Shown: one piece after another, positions 48,325-58,045 of the stretch
Numbering within the stretch: the stretch's first letter is position 1
Layout of the letters: each line of letters starts with the position of its first letter
From: Paramacrobiotus metropolitanus
Taxonomy: Eukaryota; Tardigrada; Eutardigrada; Parachela; Macrobiotidae
Direction: 5' to 3'
NCBI RefSeq assembly: GCF_019649055.1
Contig: NW_026570265.1
Location: 124,001 to 188,000, forward strand
Length of the DNA stretch: 64,000 nucleotides
Translations under genes and position numbers: made by a program
Notes under the pieces: model-generated
The model's input: the letters and a program-made list of their open reading frames with translations, nothing else
The model's database searches: none
What the model was told of the DNA's origin: nothing

Positions 48325-49046
48325 GATTTTATGTTTTATTAATTTTTGTGCTAGTGGCTTCAAGTTAAGGGTAGCTGTGGTGGCTGTGCTGTACTTTTAA
48401 AGCGGTTTCCGGTCTAGAGTTGGAATTTAGTGCAACAAGGGAAGTTTAGTTTTGCGGTGTTAAAATGTTAAAATTTATGGTTAGAGAAAATTTGGCCACT
48501 GTGATGGGTATTCTTTACTTGCATTTGAAATAAATCGCAAAGTATTTTAACCCGGTTAAGTAAAATAAATATTTAAACCCAGCCAAATCAGGGAAAAATT
48601 CTGATTGTAGTGTAATTTCCACTTTTAAAAATGATCAAGGTATTTTGTGCTCCTTATCGCTGTGTGTAAGTAGTCGTTTCAATACTGTCCTAGCTGTTGA
48701 TAACTACTGAAAGGTAATCGATGTGCGAGTACTGTAGATTGTGTAATACCATCGAGACGTATAAACGCTTACATACTGGTACTGGAAAAACCTGCAAGAG
48801 TCGTAGCACGAAGAACATTACAAAAACTATAACTTTATTTTATTCGAACAATAGAAACCAACAGGGTGACAAAAACTGCGTATTGCGCGACGTATTTGGC
48901 ATGTAAATAAATTACGATTCCCGTAAATTTCTGTCATAAATTTTATGTGCAGAAGAGTTGTCTAAATCCAAAAAGTAAAATAAATTATTAACTGTGCAGG
49001 GCACATACATGACAACGGCTGCAGTCTGTATAGTGTTAACCATTTC
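48325..49046. other. Convergent 3' regions of DLD and the ROCO gene
   Basis: No coding exon. It contains AATAAA for DLD on the plus strand and a minus-strand AATAAA near 48836 that could serve the ROCO gene, so the two transcripts may overlap. Confidence 0.55.
48529..48534 (+). terminator. Polyadenylation signal of DLD
   Basis: AATAAA about 205 bases after the stop codon. Confidence 0.6.
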
Positions 49047-52000
49047 CTACAATATGGCACAAGCACGGCTGCGTGCTTTCGCAGACGTCCCATTGGACCG
49101 GCTTTCTGTATTTCTCCGGGAACGCGGTTCTTCCACCGTCTGATTAACATGAGCAATAGGCGGTGGAGATGGCGATTTCGTGGGCTGAGGCGGAGATTGC
49201 GATGGCGGTGCGGCAGTGGCTGGTGCAGTTGTTTTAATGTCCATCCGTGGACTTTCCACCGGCTGAATGGAAATAACTTCCAAAGAGTTCTTCGCTGAAT
49301 TGACCTTCTGTTCTGAACTCTCCCTAACCATCGTGGTGGTAGCCGGCAATTCTTCAGGTGTTCTTATTAACGTTTCCGGTGGTGGCTTGGACATTTCGGG
49401 CGAAGATGGCCGAAGCGGTCCCGGTGGGCGGGGCGGATACGAGAAGTCCGGACCGGCGTGATTGATCACATCGCCGTTCTTGCCGTCTTCCGGAACGGAC
49501 CAGTTAATACTAATCTTCTTCTTTTTTGTACGCGACTGAGACGGGCTACTTTCTTTACTGCTGATCCCATTCTGTTCAGTCGGCGGGGACAAGCGTAAAT
49601 TTTCCGCGGCTAGCTTTTCTCGTCGCATTAATATCTGCTGGATCCAGTGGGAATAGTCCTGATTGGGTGCAGCTAAAATGCCATACCCATATGTTAGAAG
49701 TATTGAATTCACTATGTACTACGTCCAAAATAACAATTTGGCTTTTACGGCATTTGCGTACGTGAACATGCGCTTTTATGCATTTAATTTAATGGTATCA
49801 ATTTGTGATTCCATTCAGGTACAGTCCTTTGATCTATAATACACTTGCCGCAATAATGGTGACACGGCTGCTTTGCGTTATTAGCAAGTGTATGCCTGTG
49901 CCGTATGGCCCATGCGGGGACTTACGTAAAATACTGGATGGAACTAATTTAGCAATTTCCAGATATTTGTCATCGCCAGCGTCTTTGAATGGAATGTCGT
50001 CCTTTACTTTCGCAGCATGATACACCTTGGCAAGCGTCAACTCCGGTTCGGTATCGATTTTTTCGTCAATATAAAAGATATCACCGTGGGCGACCAGCGA
50101 AGCCTATTAAAAAGCGACAATACAGATTTACAGGATAGGTTCCGGAGGGGAGCATAGCTGACCAGATGGATACTCATGACCCATTGAAAACTCCACATAG
50201 GCCTTGCATTCAAATTGTGTATATTTACCTGCGAGTCAAAATATATTTCCGCTGGAATGGAAACTCATGACTTGACTGTGCGGTACGCACTATATTATCG
50301 ATTTTTTTATGTACAGAGTTATTATATCTATAGTTTTCATCAGCACGGCAGATAGAAAAATTTGGTTGATTTTTTCGTGAGGCACCAGGCTGTAGTATTT
50401 GTGTAAGAACTTATTCAAACTTCACGCCGGTAAAAGTGCAGAAGCCTTAATTACACGCCAGGGCGCGCACTAGTAATCTGAAGCGTCGTACGTACTGTAT
50501 ACTTTTATTGATGGTACGTTCTTTCGAGCACGCGCAAAACGTCCATCTGTTGTTGCCAATCAAAGATTCAAAGAAATGGAATAGAAATATATATGCCGTG
50601 TCGGTTCGGAATTTCTACTTTAAGTTTTATAAACATTGGGTTGATTACTGCAGTTTACAGCCGCGAGTAAGGAAATTTACCGGCAAACCTTCACTCCACC
50701 GGTTGTACAGTACGCAACACCTACTGACCACTTCCTTTGACTTACAGTGGTGCGGATGCCCTGCCAGCTGACAGCCATGAATTCGTTGACGAGATCCATT
50801 ATATAAAACACTTCCAACCACAGCGATTCCAGGAATGACGTGTCATCCTCCTCTTCGGCCGTTACTCTGGCGGATATCTCCAGAAAATCATCATGCTCAC
50901 AAGAGATGAAGAGCAGCATGTCGGATGATTTGGTTAGTACGCCTCGTTTCCAGTAATAGTGATATGAGCATTTTTCAATGAGCATGTTGTTAATCAAGGC
51001 AATCAACCGGGAGGCATTCCCCGGGGGCATCACGGGCAGGAAATACATGTACAGGGACAGCTGGACGTCCCCGCGGAAGGGCCGGCTTGTCCAATTCAAT
51101 TGCTAGACAAAATCAAATCTAATAAACCGCCCTTTCACTGATCATTTCGCCGTAAATAATTGCGAAAAATCTCTGTAAATCTGCCGGATGGAAACATGTG
51201 GCAGAAATGCGCGGCATAGGTTTCGTGATGACGGCAAAAAGGGTTTTTACACCGGCCACTTACTGGTTTCGCATCCGGAAGTAATCCGAGAAGGGGGATC
51301 GCGTATTGCTGTTGGGGCGAGAGGCTGGGAAATGCTGGCAGCGCCAGTGTTTCCGATGCGGTACGCACGGGCCGGCTTGTTGACAACAAGCAAAGATGGA
51401 ACAGAAGACTGCGTATCTGTACAACTTGATCCTCCTCCAACGCATAATCCTGAAAAGTGAACGCCACTGCACTTCAAATCAAGAAATACGTTTGCCACAC
51501 GGCTGCTACATTTCGCTAATTAAAAACGGGATGTGTTTACGTGCAGCATTGTGCGCGTGCGAACTGAAAACTGGCTGAATATTTATGTGTGCCTATTGTA
51601 TTACCATTTAGCACTGTTGACATTGTAATTAATTATGGGATGTTGTAATACAAACCTGCCAAATTAGCGGGAACAGCGATTCCTTGATCAGTCCTTTATT
51701 CGGGATATCTTCCAGTGCCGAGGCTAAAATCTGCGCTTCCGGCGGATGTGCGTTGAGACTCCGGGGCCAAAAGCGTTTCCCTTCGAAGCGGAAGGATTTC
51801 TTCTGATCATCAATATGCAGCGCACATGCGCAGCGCGCTAATACTGACGGATTAATACAGATGAGATCCACAGACTGAATGGTTTGCAGTGCCCGGGCAT
51901 CCAGTATCACTCCCTAGTCATGACATAAAGTCATCAGAGGTTTAACCTAACGTAAACCTATTTGTCCAGACCAATTTCTCTGCAACTATGCAGAGTGCGC

Positions 52001-55000
52001 TTATACTGTGACAAGTTCTTCAAGTTGGAGAGGCGATCAGTTAGGCGGCTGATGGTGATAAATGGTTCCCATAATTCATGAATATACACTTCCTGCGAGC
52101 GCTGAATAGTAGTAACGTATAAAGTGGCTGGTGGTCAACGAAGAAAAGTGATTCCATAATAAGTTTCTACATGGTTTTTTCAACAGTTTCGTTTATGAAA
52201 AATCAAGAGCGCCATTTCGAGTTAACATTCTTACAGTTGTGCTTACAATTTGCTGTAAGAATCCAATGCACTCAGTGAACCGAGATTTGCTGACACGCTC
52301 ATCTTTCGACGCCATTGCTTCGAAGTTCCTCCAGGACACACACACCACGTTCTTATCGCGCAGTGTCGATACTTCATCATACAATTCCACCCAGCCAAGA
52401 GGGATTGGGCGTGATAAATGTGGGAAAGTATTTGCGTCCAAACAAGCATTGAGCAAATGTTTACGAAGGGGATCGATCCCTTGTCCTGACTGGCAACTTG
52501 CCGTAACGAACATTTTTATCGTGTATTTTTCATCCACCTGGCGCTGTAATTCGTGGATTTTCCCTTCAAACATAGCACCATCTGGAAGGTCTCTGAAATT
52601 ACACAGACGTCTCTACATAGCGTCGTTAAAGGCTGCACTTGTTTGGGAATGGAAATTAACTTAAACCGGAAATGTGCAGATCTAAAGTTTTAAACAACTA
52701 AATAAAGTGATGTGAGTTTAGATCGTCGTTTTAAAAGCATCATAAATCTAGTCCCCTTTTAACAAAACATCATGCTAGCACCAAAAACAATTGCATAAAC
52801 AGCTACGTACGCCATACATAAATACAAAAAAAAACAAAAAGAAAGTTTGTTCACAAAAAGAAAGAATTGCATATAATTATATGGCATTCATGACCTTTAG
52901 GTTTTTGTAGCACAATGCAACAGGACTTACTGCAATAAAGCGAGTTCGACATTGATGCTGTTTTTGCGAACAAGGTCGGCACTGTCAATTGACCTTTTGA
53001 TTATGTCCATTCGCGATAAGCACTCTTCATGAGCATATTTATCCGCACGGGTGGCCACCACATAAATGTGTGGCCGCCGTGCTTTGCCATATATGGTGTG
53101 TATTAATAAAGGTATTTTTTCCACACTGCTCGAATCCTCGAAGTTACACACACAAATATACACAGACGCATCGCTGAAGAACACCGGGTGCACACCACGC
53201 AGCACATCCCGGCCATCACAATCCCACACTTCTACGGTGAGGTCCTTCTCGTCCTCGCTGATGTCTTTTGTTACAGCACTATCTGCAATGGATGAAAGGT
53301 TGCCAACACGCACAGAAAATACACACGATGCTGGAATGTGTATTGATTATTTAAACGAACGTACCCCATGCATTCTCTTTGAAAGGCTGCCAAACGTGAA
53401 TATTTACACCTGTAACAAACATACAACATAAGGTCTGCTGCCTGCATATTGTACATCGCACTGCATATCGTAAATAAGTGATATGTGTGCAAAACATAAC
53501 TTTCAGGAGATTGAAGAAGGGCTTTGAAGCAAGTCAACAAAGTCTACAGTTCGATAAAATATATATAAGAAATACGGCATCCTGCAACGCGGTATCCCTG
53601 TAGAAGATGTTTGCGTGCCGGAGAAGTTATAATATAGGCTCAAACAGTATGCGATACTATTACCAGTAATAAGACAACAGAATGCCTTTTACGTAACTTT
53701 ATACTAACCAACTAATTAGAAGTTACTATCCAACTAATTATTCAAACACAAAGTATTGTAATTGGCTTCTGTATCGGTTATTTTCAAAAGTTACGACTAT
53801 TTTGATTTGCTCTTTGCAGCGGTTAACACGTGCTAATGTACTCTAATTTTGCAATCGACGAAAAACGTTAAGGTCAGTGTGGCGAAAATTGGAAAACAAG
53901 AGATTTATAGTCGTGATGCTAAGGCCAAACTAGTTAAAATAAAATGGAATAATAAATATGACTCTTGATAAAATGCTAATTAACGACTTCTTTTATTTCT
54001 TACAGTGCACAAACACTATGTACCCACGCTTATTTACTTAACTATGAAGTCCTGCGATTGCAGATTATTTCTTTCTTTTACGTACAGTAATACCGCTTGT
54101 ACATTCAGCCGGATAGTTCTTTCGTGCTTCTTTAACCTCAAGCCATCAACTTTAAACGCATATATATATACCAAAAAAATTACTTATAAGGCAAATAATT
54201 TTTTTCAATACAGTCGTAATAATAACGCATTATTATATTAAGCATAAGCGAATCATCACGACATTTCGGTAATATAAGCGGACAACAACTACCTTCTGAA
54301 ATGAATGTCGGAGCGTGATGTGCTTGTTTGCCCATCAAGGCAGTTAGCACGGCAGTTTTTCCGCTTCCCGTCGTTCCCAGAATGAAAGCTTTTAGCCGAT
54401 AATTAAGATTTCTGGATTCAAAGTGATTGAGAATAGCTACAACTGATGAGGATGTAGCCGATACTCCAGCACTGATTTCGTCCGGAATCCCCATTGCGTT
54501 TAATTCCCGGCACATAGTCAGGGAGATCTCTTTTAGCGTTGATCTACGCTTAATAATTGAGGCCGGTATGCGCGTAATTGACGTCCCATCCAGCTTTATC
54601 CTAACAATGGTTGTACAGTAGCGAATAATTGCCTGCAGGGCGAGATCTTTGATTTTGGGATTCCAGCTAAGATTGACATAGCGTAGATGGATGGCATGAG
54701 TGGCCAGCTCCTTCACACCATAATCCGTAATCTTGGCACAGTGCGACAAATCAACATAGTGCAAATTACTACAGTACTTGGCCAGTATCCACAGTGTGGA
54801 GTCGGTAATGTTGGTTTTAAACAGTTCAATGTGGCGTAATAGTTTACAATTGGTAGCAATATACTCCACACAGCGATCGGTGATCTGTGGACAGTCGCCC
54901 AAGGAAATGGCATTTAACGAGCCGAAATAGCAGTCAACAGCGTAGTTGACATGGAAGTCAAAAATGTCATCAAATCCGATAAATTTCACGCTGTGCAACT

Positions 55001-58000
55001 CCAAAGGAATATGAGTAACCCTGAAAACAATGTTGCCTCGTTAAGCTGTACTGACAAAACGGAGTGCTATAAACCTTTATGATTTAATGCAGTGAATATG
55101 GGAAGTGTAATACTGCAATAAAGTTTGGAGTCTGCTTGCAAACACTTGCGATTAGGGCGTGAGCGGTGTATAAGCAACCACTATTGATCGCTCCTGATTA
55201 AAAGAGCCGACTGGCTACCGTCTGTCGTATGAAAGGATCAATCTTTGTTTCCGAACTTACACACTCCAGGTTGTAAAGTTCCATTGCAAAACTCTAATGT
55301 TAATCGTTGATTTATCGATCTGATTAAATTATGGTAGGTGACTAGGGGTGGTTAGGCACAGGATGCATTCAATGGCATTTCGACTTTAGTGATTCATAAT
55401 TTTAATTATGTTATGCAGCTTATCACTTGTTGCAGCAAGCGAAATCCGCTGGCTGCTTACTAAATTTAAATGGATCCTTCAAATTTAACCAGGTCACTGT
55501 CAAACGTATGGAATTTGCTGCTTATAACGTTTCTGTAATATTATTACTTAGGATAAACATAAACATCGTAAACATAAACATCGTAATTTCGTAAACGTAT
55601 ATAGCGAATACGGGGTTTCGGCAGGCAGTAAGTAAGCCTTCGTAATCAGCAATTAATGGACTAACTATTATATTTCACATAATTATGCAATACTCAACAG
55701 TTCATGGATGGGATTGTCGGGCCATGGCTTCCTTTTCGTATGCACAAATGCAATGTTCTGCAGCTCTTGAAGGTTGGTACCGATGTGCTTGAGGCATCTG
55801 TGGTCAATACCAAAGCAATCCTCGAATTGCAGAGCTCGAAGGTGTTTACACCGCGTTACTAAATGCTCTAAATGGTTCAAATCAAACTGGTTGTGACCTT
55901 CCACTTCCTGCAAACAACAGCAAAAAGCAACAAACCATTATAATTACCCTTACATATACTTGCGTATTTCAGACGCATAGAGGCAATATTTACTATTTGC
56001 TAGCAAAAACTCGATGATAGTATAAACAAGTTGATGCGTTGCTGCAGAAAAATAACGTTCACACCATTCCGAAATGAATAGGCCATCTTACCAGAGATCT
56101 CTGATGCCGCAAACTGCTGCTCATATTTATCGCGAATATCACGGGCTCCGTAAATGCTCATTTTCTTGCTTATGATTATAATTATTACTCACAAAATGGG
56201 GCGCAACGGTAGCACGTTATGGTAGAAAGGATGTATTTACCTTAATTTCAAAAGACAGCAATTTAGGCGTAACGCATCCAACAATATCATGGAGCTGCGA
56301 TCCGGAAAGCTGAGTGCACGCTCGTAATCTTAGCACCTTCAGATGATCCGAAAGGTGGATAATCAGGGTCTGTACACAAAAGCCGGGAAACCTCAGGCAG
56401 TATTCTCATAATTAAGAAACACCTAATACAGCCTATGTCGAGCCTTAGAAGTACTGGAGCAGTAAGTTACTAACTTAAAATGATTATATGGACGGTGGTA
56501 GTTTAAATTCAGCGAATCGAACCTATCACTAATCAAGCATTTAGTATAAATGCATGGGCAGAAATTAGGAAAGAAAGATAATTAAATATAAGTAACATAA
56601 TTATTATAGTTAAATAGATGCTGGGTTAAATCTGCCGCGCTCAAAATCATAAATTGGCAACTCATACACATTAAATAGAGCGCTGAGATGGGTTAACGTG
56701 GTGAAAGAAGATTAATGTAACGATTGTTAAGTCACGCTTCTGGAAATACAACTTTCAAGTTCGACAACTCTAAAAAATAGTAAACCGTAATGCTGTTTTT
56801 TGGGCAAGCTCAGAGCGAAGCAATACAGTAGCCATTTTGCAAAATGCAACAGAATGATTTGCATAAAAAATGCTAAAATTAATTTTTCATGGTAATGTAC
56901 GAGCTAACGATTAGAGAATTGTGGAATTGTTCGTGTTTAGCTCACGACTGTTAAAAGGGCAAGATCTGGCTCCCACTGTTCCACATTACGGTAATACAAT
57001 CACGTAGAATATCAAAAAACGCATATAATTACATGTTACCAAAAATTAACAAAATCAGAACTGGATTTTTTGTCGGCATCACGCTTGATCGAGTGTTAAT
57101 CGTCATCAAGATGTAATAACCATTTATGACATTTCATGCATAACTGGTTACGATTGGCTGTTCTTTCGCTATGAACTATAAAGATGCTAATTATCTGTAC
57201 TGAGGTTTTGTAAGATCATAGTAAAAATCTCATTAAGGTCACATTGTAAGTTTTCTTTTTTCTGTTATTTGGTTGGTCCCGAGAAAGATAAATAACGTCA
57301 AAACTCATAAATGTCCACTATTTTTAACCTACATTTTTGAAATTTATTATACAATGAAAATGGCACAAACGGTTTGCAGAATCGTAGATGTCTACGAGTA
57401 GCTGTTTACTTCTAACGCCAGACCAGTGTAGTTTGGGAATCGGAAAACACGTCATGCATTGTGTATACTCCCAGTGTGATTAAAAAGTAAGTATTGTTAC
57501 GATTATCCACTACCTGACAGCACCTGTGCATTATGATGTGTGGAATTAATCGAAGTTTATACTATGGAATCGAGTATCGACAGACACGACAGCTGTTTTG
57601 GGATAGTGCTGCATATGCATCATGCCTACTTACATAATATTGTAATCGATTATTTAATATCATTATGTCTGGGAAAGCCTATCCCAGACTTCTGAGCACT
57701 GTTTAACTGCACGTACACATATCCCATCCTTACTTGGATATCATCTAGGCTTTCCGCAGCAGTAATTGTAATGTCAGTCGTGATGGTTTCCGCACCAGCC
57801 TCATGATCGGAGCGCGATGCCGGGCCAGGTGAAGACGTGCCTGTAACCGCTTCCGCTGGTGTAGTGAAGCGGCGTTTTAAGCTGCGCGCACGACCCGCTG
57901 ACAAAGGCCGAGATATGGTGCTGTTGGGCAGGGAGGTTTTACTGGAGCTAATACTACCGCTACGGGCCACAGCGGTTGCCAACGCTGGTGTTTCGTCGCC

Positions 58001-58045
58001 AGTTTGATTAACTGTCAAGGAGGCTTTTCTGGCCTGACCATCCAT
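49047..58045 (-). CDS. ROCO-family protein: LRR-CC-type repeats, Roc GTPase, COR, C-terminal CaaX box
   Basis: Thirteen exons: 57734-58045, 56241-56369, 55694-55907, 55263-55293, 54293-55020, 52931-53282, 52247-52592, 51958-52092, 51652-51913, 51264-51466, 50746-51102, 49926-50103, 49047-49672; about 1290 codons. Residues 1-104 are Ser/Thr-rich. Leucine-rich repeats of the FBXL/AMN1 (LRR-CC) type follow to about 400 (CPQITDRCVEYIATNC, LSHCAKITDYGVKELA). Roc: P-loop GTTGSGKT (444-451), G3-like DCDG (493-496), G4-like TRAD (550-553). COR: GVILDARAL, ILASALEDIPNKGLI, then the C-terminal half with YYWKRGVL. There is no kinase domain. The Pro-rich tail ends KARSRACAIL, a CaaX box predicted for geranylgeranylation. 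Exon 8 ends in frame with TAG (51958-51960) directly before its donor; see findings. Exons 2-4 and the 31-base exon are the weakest. Confidence 0.82.
55555..55584. repeat. Two 15-bp tandem copies in a ROCO intron
   Basis: AAACATAAACATCGT is repeated twice, perfectly and head to tail. Confidence 0.85.

Follow-up and report, generated by a model that had tools for sequence, protein, structure and literature searches.

The minus strand between positions 58045 and 49047 of a 64-kb window of the Paramacrobiotus metropolitanus genome (contig NW_026570265.1, here C45; window C45:124001-188000) carries a predicted gene for a ROCO protein. Its leucine-rich repeats (LRRs) are followed by a Roc GTPase domain, a probable COR domain and a Pro/Ser-rich tail that ends in the CaaX box CAIL. 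We regard it as fairly probable that this single gene encodes a kinase-less, prenylated ROCO switch. Coordinates are window positions unless a contig is named, all exons lie on the minus strand, and the genome searches covered 169.8 Mb in 533 contigs. A tardigrade CAHS protein, of a kind known from eutardigrades, matched this genome in 20 places (best E 3e-69; the best two with 65 and 71% identity), in keeping with a eutardigrade. Papers are cited by PubMed Central number. The gene was modelled with 11 exons of compatible phases, and the spliced translation of 1226 amino acids (aa) contains no internal stop. All ten acceptors are AG and six of the ten donors start with GTAAG, while the remaining donors read GTAAAT, GTTGAG, GTAGTT and GTTTGT.

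The repeats are encoded by exons 2 (56241..56369; aa 105-147), 3 (55699..55907; aa 148-216) and 4 (54293..55020; aa 217-459), the first two of which were placed by the splice model and the repeat register. Eleven repeats were delimited by hand between aa 114 and 394; ten have 24-29 residues each, and the last is partial. They are of the type found in F-box/LRR proteins: the Pfam scan of the spliced protein gave LRR_6 with an E-value of 7.1e-8 (2.1e-10 with the frame of exon 4 alone), and the best solved-structure match among the sequences of the Protein Data Bank (PDB) was FBXL2 (E 1.3e-28), with FBXL17 at 6.9e-20. Across the join of exons 3 and 4 the repeat register is preserved (LQNIAFVHTKRKPWPDNPIHEL joined to VTHIPLE, then LHSVKF). 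No F-box was found by Pfam in the whole protein or in aa 1-216 (to E 10), a scan that lies outside the introns. We therefore do not propose that the protein acts in a ubiquitin ligase.

Exon 4, which is open over all its 728 bp, holds six full repeats together with the Roc P-loop GTTGSGKT. Because one exon encodes both, the union of LRRs and Roc needs no splice prediction. This answers the possibility, raised in the initial annotation, that the LRR exons belong to a separate transcript. Upstream of the repeats, exon 1 (57734..58045; aa 1-104) supplies the start codon and a Ser/Thr/Ala-rich N-terminus; its codon score of 0.18 bits per codon is narrowly the best of six frames.

The codon scores were trained on two neighbouring genes, with a background table from the introns of the ROCO gene itself. 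They range from -0.09 to 0.20 bits per codon over the exons, and the model frame is the best of six in 7 of the 11 (exons 1, 5, 6, 7, 8, 10 and 11). The introns have lower scores (-0.13 for the best sense frame), which is not independent evidence, as the background was built from those introns. Such a background in itself depresses intron scores, and it is the differences among the frames of one exon that are informative. A further exon was considered in intron 2 (56.0-56.19 kb) and discarded, since by eye its phases disagree with those of the adjacent exons and the repeats are in register without it. Inspection of introns 1 and 4 by eye, in which a short exon could escape, gave no convincing missed exon. 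The two flanking genes, named by eye, are on the plus strand: a dihydrolipoyl dehydrogenase gene occupies 46-48 kb, and on the other side a striatin-like gene extends from 61.4 kb.

The Roc-COR module

The remainder of Roc is encoded by exon 5 (52931..53282; aa 460-576), which includes the motifs WDCDGRD and ATRAD and matches the Roc model with E 1e-7 by its frame alone. In the spliced protein the Pfam Roc match spans aa 427-540 with E 8.1e-11 and 42.6 bits (cut-off 27), so that the Roc P-loop domain of the initial annotation was recovered, as were the FBXL-type repeats in front of it. The nearest solved chain was the Roc domain of LRRK2 (1.1e-8), with Rab7 behind it (2.2e-6). The P-loop LGTTGSGKTAVLTALM is intact and matches the pattern of LRRK2 VGNTGSGKTTLLQQLM. 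Switch II reads WDCDGRD where LRRK2 has WDFAGRE, and the base-binding motif reads TRAD where LRRK2 has THLD. When Roc was aligned pairwise with LRRK2 and with the species' own LRRK, none of 1000 shuffles reached the score in either case. We consider it likely that the window Roc binds GTP, and doubtful that it hydrolyses it.

Exon 6 (52247..52592; aa 577-692) contains the end of Roc and the start of COR-A, which continues in exon 7 (51656..51913; aa 693-778); exon 8 (51264..51449; aa 779-840) belongs to the COR region and was placed by the splice model. The COR-A match (E 0.0092) extends across exons 6 to 8, and exons 7 and 8 are without a Pfam match of their own. Exon 9 (50746..51102; aa 841-959) matches COR-B with E 6.9e-4 by its frame alone, below the 27-bit cut-off. 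COR-A and COR-B appear in the expected order after Roc. The Pfam scan of the whole protein returned COR-B alone (E 0.013) and no COR-A. The COR domain had been named without reservation before; its two halves stand in order, and they are weaker than was implied, both lying below the curated Pfam cut-offs. In brown algae, no more than 18 of 111 ROCO proteins have a COR that the model PF16095 recognises (PMC11378527), so a miss in the window gene is not unusual. A divergent COR domain is, with reservation, probable.

In the genome, the COR-A and COR-B models list only contig C146. There, at C146:182000-201999 (L016, L017), ankyrin, LRR, Roc, COR and kinase motifs were recognised by eye, and the Roc-COR part matched the solved chains of LRRK2 (6e-44) and LRRK1 (1.8e-39). 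The species thus has its own LRRK on C146, and the window gene is something else.

When the genome was searched with a query of 832 residues from the predicted protein, only the best candidates being scored, the gene itself, a copy on C109 and weaker matches on C86, C23, C33, C4 and C251 were listed. Two Roc/Ras-type GTPase frames on C23 (C23:306093-306437 and C23:408967-409311) have identical scores (1.4e-32, 330 codons); they are oppositely oriented, with about 103 kb between them, and may be an inverted duplication. Among prokaryotic contigs, a search with 1049 of the 1226 residues gave 9 pattern-matched stretches, none of them confirmed by tblastn, and a search of viral contigs with 742 residues gave no match; both are silent on animals.

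The copy at C109:312038-315873 (L014 1039-4874) is a near-identical, circularly permuted 3.86-kb version of window positions 49675-53532. It runs from 53232 to 53532, continues with 6 bases and then with 49675-53233. Identity is 100% over the first 301 bp and 97.7% over the remainder, where 46 bases are deleted, 16 are inserted and 20 are mismatched; the reading frame is broken and 30 of the 46 deleted bases fall in homopolymers. The copy may have arisen when a circle reinserted, or else the assembly may have taken in an uncorrected, chimeric long read. It was rejected as a second witness of the CaaX box, as it stops within a few bases of exon 11, does not include that exon and is riddled with indels.

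The CaaX tail and the prenylation machinery

Exon 10 (49926..50103; aa 960-1018), placed by the splice model and its codon score, encodes a linker after COR-B and ends in C followed by the donor GTAAGT. It joins through an AG acceptor and in matching phase to exon 11 (49047..49672; up to aa 1226), whose frame is the best of six with 0.17 bits per codon. Exon 11 encodes the Pro/Ser-rich tail ending KARSRACAIL before a TAG stop, and a candidate poly(A) signal AATAAA (48839..48844) follows 202 bases beyond the stop. The last 187 residues consist to 38.5% of Pro, Ser and Thr. The protein end is SNGTSAKARSRACAIL (AKARSRACAIL), with the CaaX box CAIL (49050..49061) behind a hydrophilic basic linker.

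To see how uncommon such an end is, all stop-ended open reading frames (ORFs) of the window were counted, 2152 of at least 20 aa and 345 of at least 60 aa. A strict C-aliphatic-aliphatic-X end occurs in 8 of the 2152, the ROCO ORF included. When at least 3 Lys/Arg and no acidic residue were demanded in the 11 preceding positions, the ROCO ORF was the only one left (1/2152); with a looser geranylgeranyltransferase (GGTase) pattern and the same linker, two remained (2/2152). Among the ORFs of at least 60 aa it is the only one with a strict CaaX end (1/345). The Pro-rich tail ending CAIL after a basic stretch was thus found as first described, and it is an uncommon ORF end.

In prenylated proteins the linker before the CaaX box comprises 11 flexible, hydrophilic residues, with more lysines in substrates of GGTase type I (GGTase-I; PMC1175975). 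The sequence of the window protein combines a hydrophilic linker with a C-terminal CaaX box, and prenylation at this box is predicted. CAIL is the end of yeast Cdc42 (PMC11304957) and is also valid for farnesyltransferase (PMC1175975). With the Arabidopsis enzyme, farnesylation of CAIL greatly exceeds its geranylgeranylation (PMC3017772), and because of this preference it is uncertain which lipid would be attached. Human G-gamma-2 likewise ends in CAIL, its sequence being matched over all 70 residues in the PDB.

The genome contains matches to the CaaX-processing enzyme families. Prenyltransferase-beta matches were found at three places, and alpha-subunit matches at two clear places, with three further ones at E 0.4 to 0.9. 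The alpha-subunit search did not show PTAR1, the third alpha subunit. Rce1 is represented by one similar place and ICMT by one partial match. This ICMT match (C45:371239-371334) and a prenyltransferase-beta match (C45:405972-406821) lie on the contig of the window, about 183 and 218 kb past its end. On C61 (around 748418; L018 1432-1602) a G-gamma frame ends in NPWAEKTKCVIF (CVIF), another CaaX end.

One of the weak LRR matches of the genome search with the window protein led to an FBXL2-like gene on the minus strand of C86 (L019, C86:351500-359499; last-exon frame 354138-353938), which ends in RQRICRCCAIL. Its product aligned with human FBXL2, which ends in RLCRCCVIL, from residue 214 to the last (212 residues; E 4.4e-95). 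The LRRs of the window and C86 proteins are 25-31% identical in the reported pieces, and by eye the tails share little else. As read from the two predicted proteins, one genome therefore carries both a ROCO gene and an FBXL2-like gene whose products share the LRR type and the last four residues, be it by common origin or by convergence. FBXL2 is geranylgeranylated on CVIL by GGTase type III (GGTase-III), whose PTAR1 subunit covers the concave LRR face of FBXL2 (PMC9141697, PMC7729025).

Proposed mechanism and rival explanations

For the predicted protein, the comparisons establish an FBXL2-type LRR solenoid, a Roc domain with an intact P-loop and a CaaX box behind a basic linker. In the mechanism that we propose, the CAIL tail would be geranylgeranylated by GGTase-I, farnesylation being possible too; GGTase-III might act instead, should its alpha subunit be docked by the LRRs as FBXL2-like repeats. 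Trimming by Rce1 and methylation by ICMT would follow, and the prenyl group together with the basic residues would hold the protein on a membrane. There, Roc-COR would act as a nucleotide-dependent switch between dimer and monomer. The LRRs and the Pro-rich tail would bind partners, and the availability or clustering of the LRR-bound partners would be switched. Without a kinase, the output must be binding, that is, scaffolding or recruitment and not phosphorylation.

Taken further, the gene would represent a tardigrade ROCO subtype in which the LRRs and the prenylated CaaX end that together make up FBXL2 flank Roc-COR, F-box and kinase are lacking, the protein anchors itself by its lipid without a Rab protein and GTP-driven dimerisation clusters the LRR-bound partners on membranes. 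We hold this fuller version tentatively, as nearly balanced and leaning towards doubt. Less likely than its core is the extension that the LRRs dock GGTase-III through PTAR1 and that the nucleotide state of Roc-COR could decide on lipidation.

Several observations weigh against the reading as a prenylated ROCO switch. The COR matches are sub-threshold: in a library-wide scan of the separated domains COR-A reached E 0.0092 and 16.3 bits (cut-off 35.3) and COR-B E 9.3e-4 and 19.5 bits (cut-off 27). The genome searches with both models do not list the window gene, and the search of the PDB sequences with the COR region gave two unrelated weak matches and no COR. The local alignment of COR-A with LRRK2 scored 49, compared with 199 for LRRK2 and the species' own LRRK, and the alignment score was reached by 13 (LRRK2) and 9 of 1000 shuffles. 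In Roc, switch I has diverged and the TVGID of LRRK2 is not retained. The Ras (33.7 bits) and Arf (27.1) models pass their own cut-offs too, scoring below Roc. The chains 4wnr and 3dpu, which we take to be prokaryotic Rocos, rank below Rab7 in the Roc search of the PDB, and 3dpu ranks below Ypt7 in the PDB search that gave the FBXL2 match. Of the splice sites, the donor after exon 3 (ACT followed by GTTGAG) is the weakest. Exon 1 is the least certain exon, being without homology and followed by an intron of 1364 bases, and in 4 of the 11 exons (2, 3, 4 and 9) a different, stop-containing frame outscores that of the model. At the C-terminus, positions -1 to -7 contain two Arg but a single Lys, where substrates of GGTase-I usually have more, and the CaaX and linker filters that gave 1/2152 were set after the motif had been seen.

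The strongest rival is that the CAIL end is accidental or unprocessed and that the gene encodes a soluble LRR-Roc-COR switch like MFHAS1 with a disordered Pro/Ser-rich tail. A chance end is conceivable with 8 strict CaaX ends among the 2152 window ORFs, the more so as the gene was singled out as an oddity. However, the linker filter leaves a single ORF, CAIL is a known substrate motif (PMC11304957, PMC1175975) and the CaaX-processing enzyme families are present in the genome. The FBXL2-like gene on C86 also ends in CAIL, and because of this we take an accidental CaaX to be less likely and a prenylated switch to be more so; the soluble protein is, in our judgement, unlikely, though to be taken seriously.

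A second rival divides the locus between two transcripts, one for LRR-Roc-COR that ends soon after exon 10, for example by retention of intron 10, and another to which exon 11 belongs. The splice sites are predicted only, and a frame continued beyond exon 10 runs into a stop at 49834, which would allow a shorter isoform without the CaaX box. Against this, the GTAAGT donor, the AG acceptor and the phases of exons 10 and 11 fit, AATAAA follows exon 11, and by eye no other long minus-strand frame lies between exon 11 and the dihydrolipoyl dehydrogenase gene. A separate transcript for the CAIL exon, which the initial annotation had named as fatal to its claim, is made less likely by phase, coding score and poly(A) signal, and the two-transcript arrangement seems to us rather improbable. 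A decaying or mis-assembled locus, be it a pseudogene or an FBXL gene and a Roc gene wrongly fused by the assembly, would suit the frame-broken, permuted piece on C109, which involves the locus in a duplication or an assembly error, but is highly improbable with 11 open exons of compatible phases in the window copy and an LRR-Roc junction inside one exon that lies outside the duplicated piece.

Comparison with known ROCO and CaaX proteins

LRR-Roc-COR without a kinase is the simplest ROCO topology and includes MFHAS1 (PMC6337361). The initial statement that animal ROCO proteins use other repeats or add kinase domains was therefore too narrow, while the architecture itself, with FBXL-type LRRs, Roc, a probable COR, no kinase found and a CaaX box, is supported by the Pfam and PDB matches and the splice model. 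Protostomes have LRRK and DAPK1, and MFHAS1 is found in deuterostomes only (PMC4104024); later work describes many animal ROCO architectures (PMC11378527, PMC9334734). In the open-licence literature, judged mostly from listings, we saw no report of a ROCO protein with FBXL-type repeats or a CaaX box, and passages from open-licence papers on Roco, CaaX and prenylation describe no prenylated one.

Roc-COR units are known as nucleotide-dependent dimer/monomer switches, and access to membranes is central to the biology of LRRK2, which is brought there by Rab proteins (PMC6337361). If our reading is true, a kinase-less, self-anchored ROCO protein separates Roc-COR switching, membrane residence and kinase output from each other, and adds to an animal inventory in which protostomes are credited with LRRK and DAPK1, and deuterostomes alone with MFHAS1 (PMC4104024). 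With the common FBXL2-type LRRs and CAIL ends of two genes in one genome, the evolution of LRR-guided prenylation could also be tested directly. Should other tardigrades lack the CaaX box, the most interesting part of the finding falls.

As in group-1 ROCO proteins, the LRRs of the window protein precede Roc and no kinase family was found; the Pfam scan of the protein (13 families listed) contained no kinase, ankyrin, WD40 or death domain. It resembles MFHAS1 (MASL1) and the group-1 members Tornado1 and the prokaryotic Rocos in its N-terminal LRRs, Roc, probable COR and lack of a kinase (PMC6337361, PMC4104024), but differs from them in its FBXL-type repeats of 24-29 residues and its long CaaX tail. 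With LRRK1 and LRRK2 it shares a very similar P-loop in Roc and a weak similarity in COR-A, whereas kinase, ankyrin and WD40 domains were not detected and its predicted membrane anchor would be its own, where LRRK2 relies on Rab proteins (PMC6337361). The N-terminal kinase and the death domain of DAPK1 were not found either. FBXL2, which the LRRs match best among solved structures, also ends in a CaaX box (6o60_C ends in CCVIL), but in the window protein no F-box was detected, Roc-COR and a long tail stand between the LRRs and the CaaX box, and by eye the two tails have little in common before the last residues. Cdc42 and GNG2 have the same CAIL end, whereas the window protein is large and multidomain and not a small GTPase. 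Since kinase-less LRR-Roc-COR proteins are already known, what appears to be new in the predicted protein is the combination of FBXL2-type repeats with a CaaX box.

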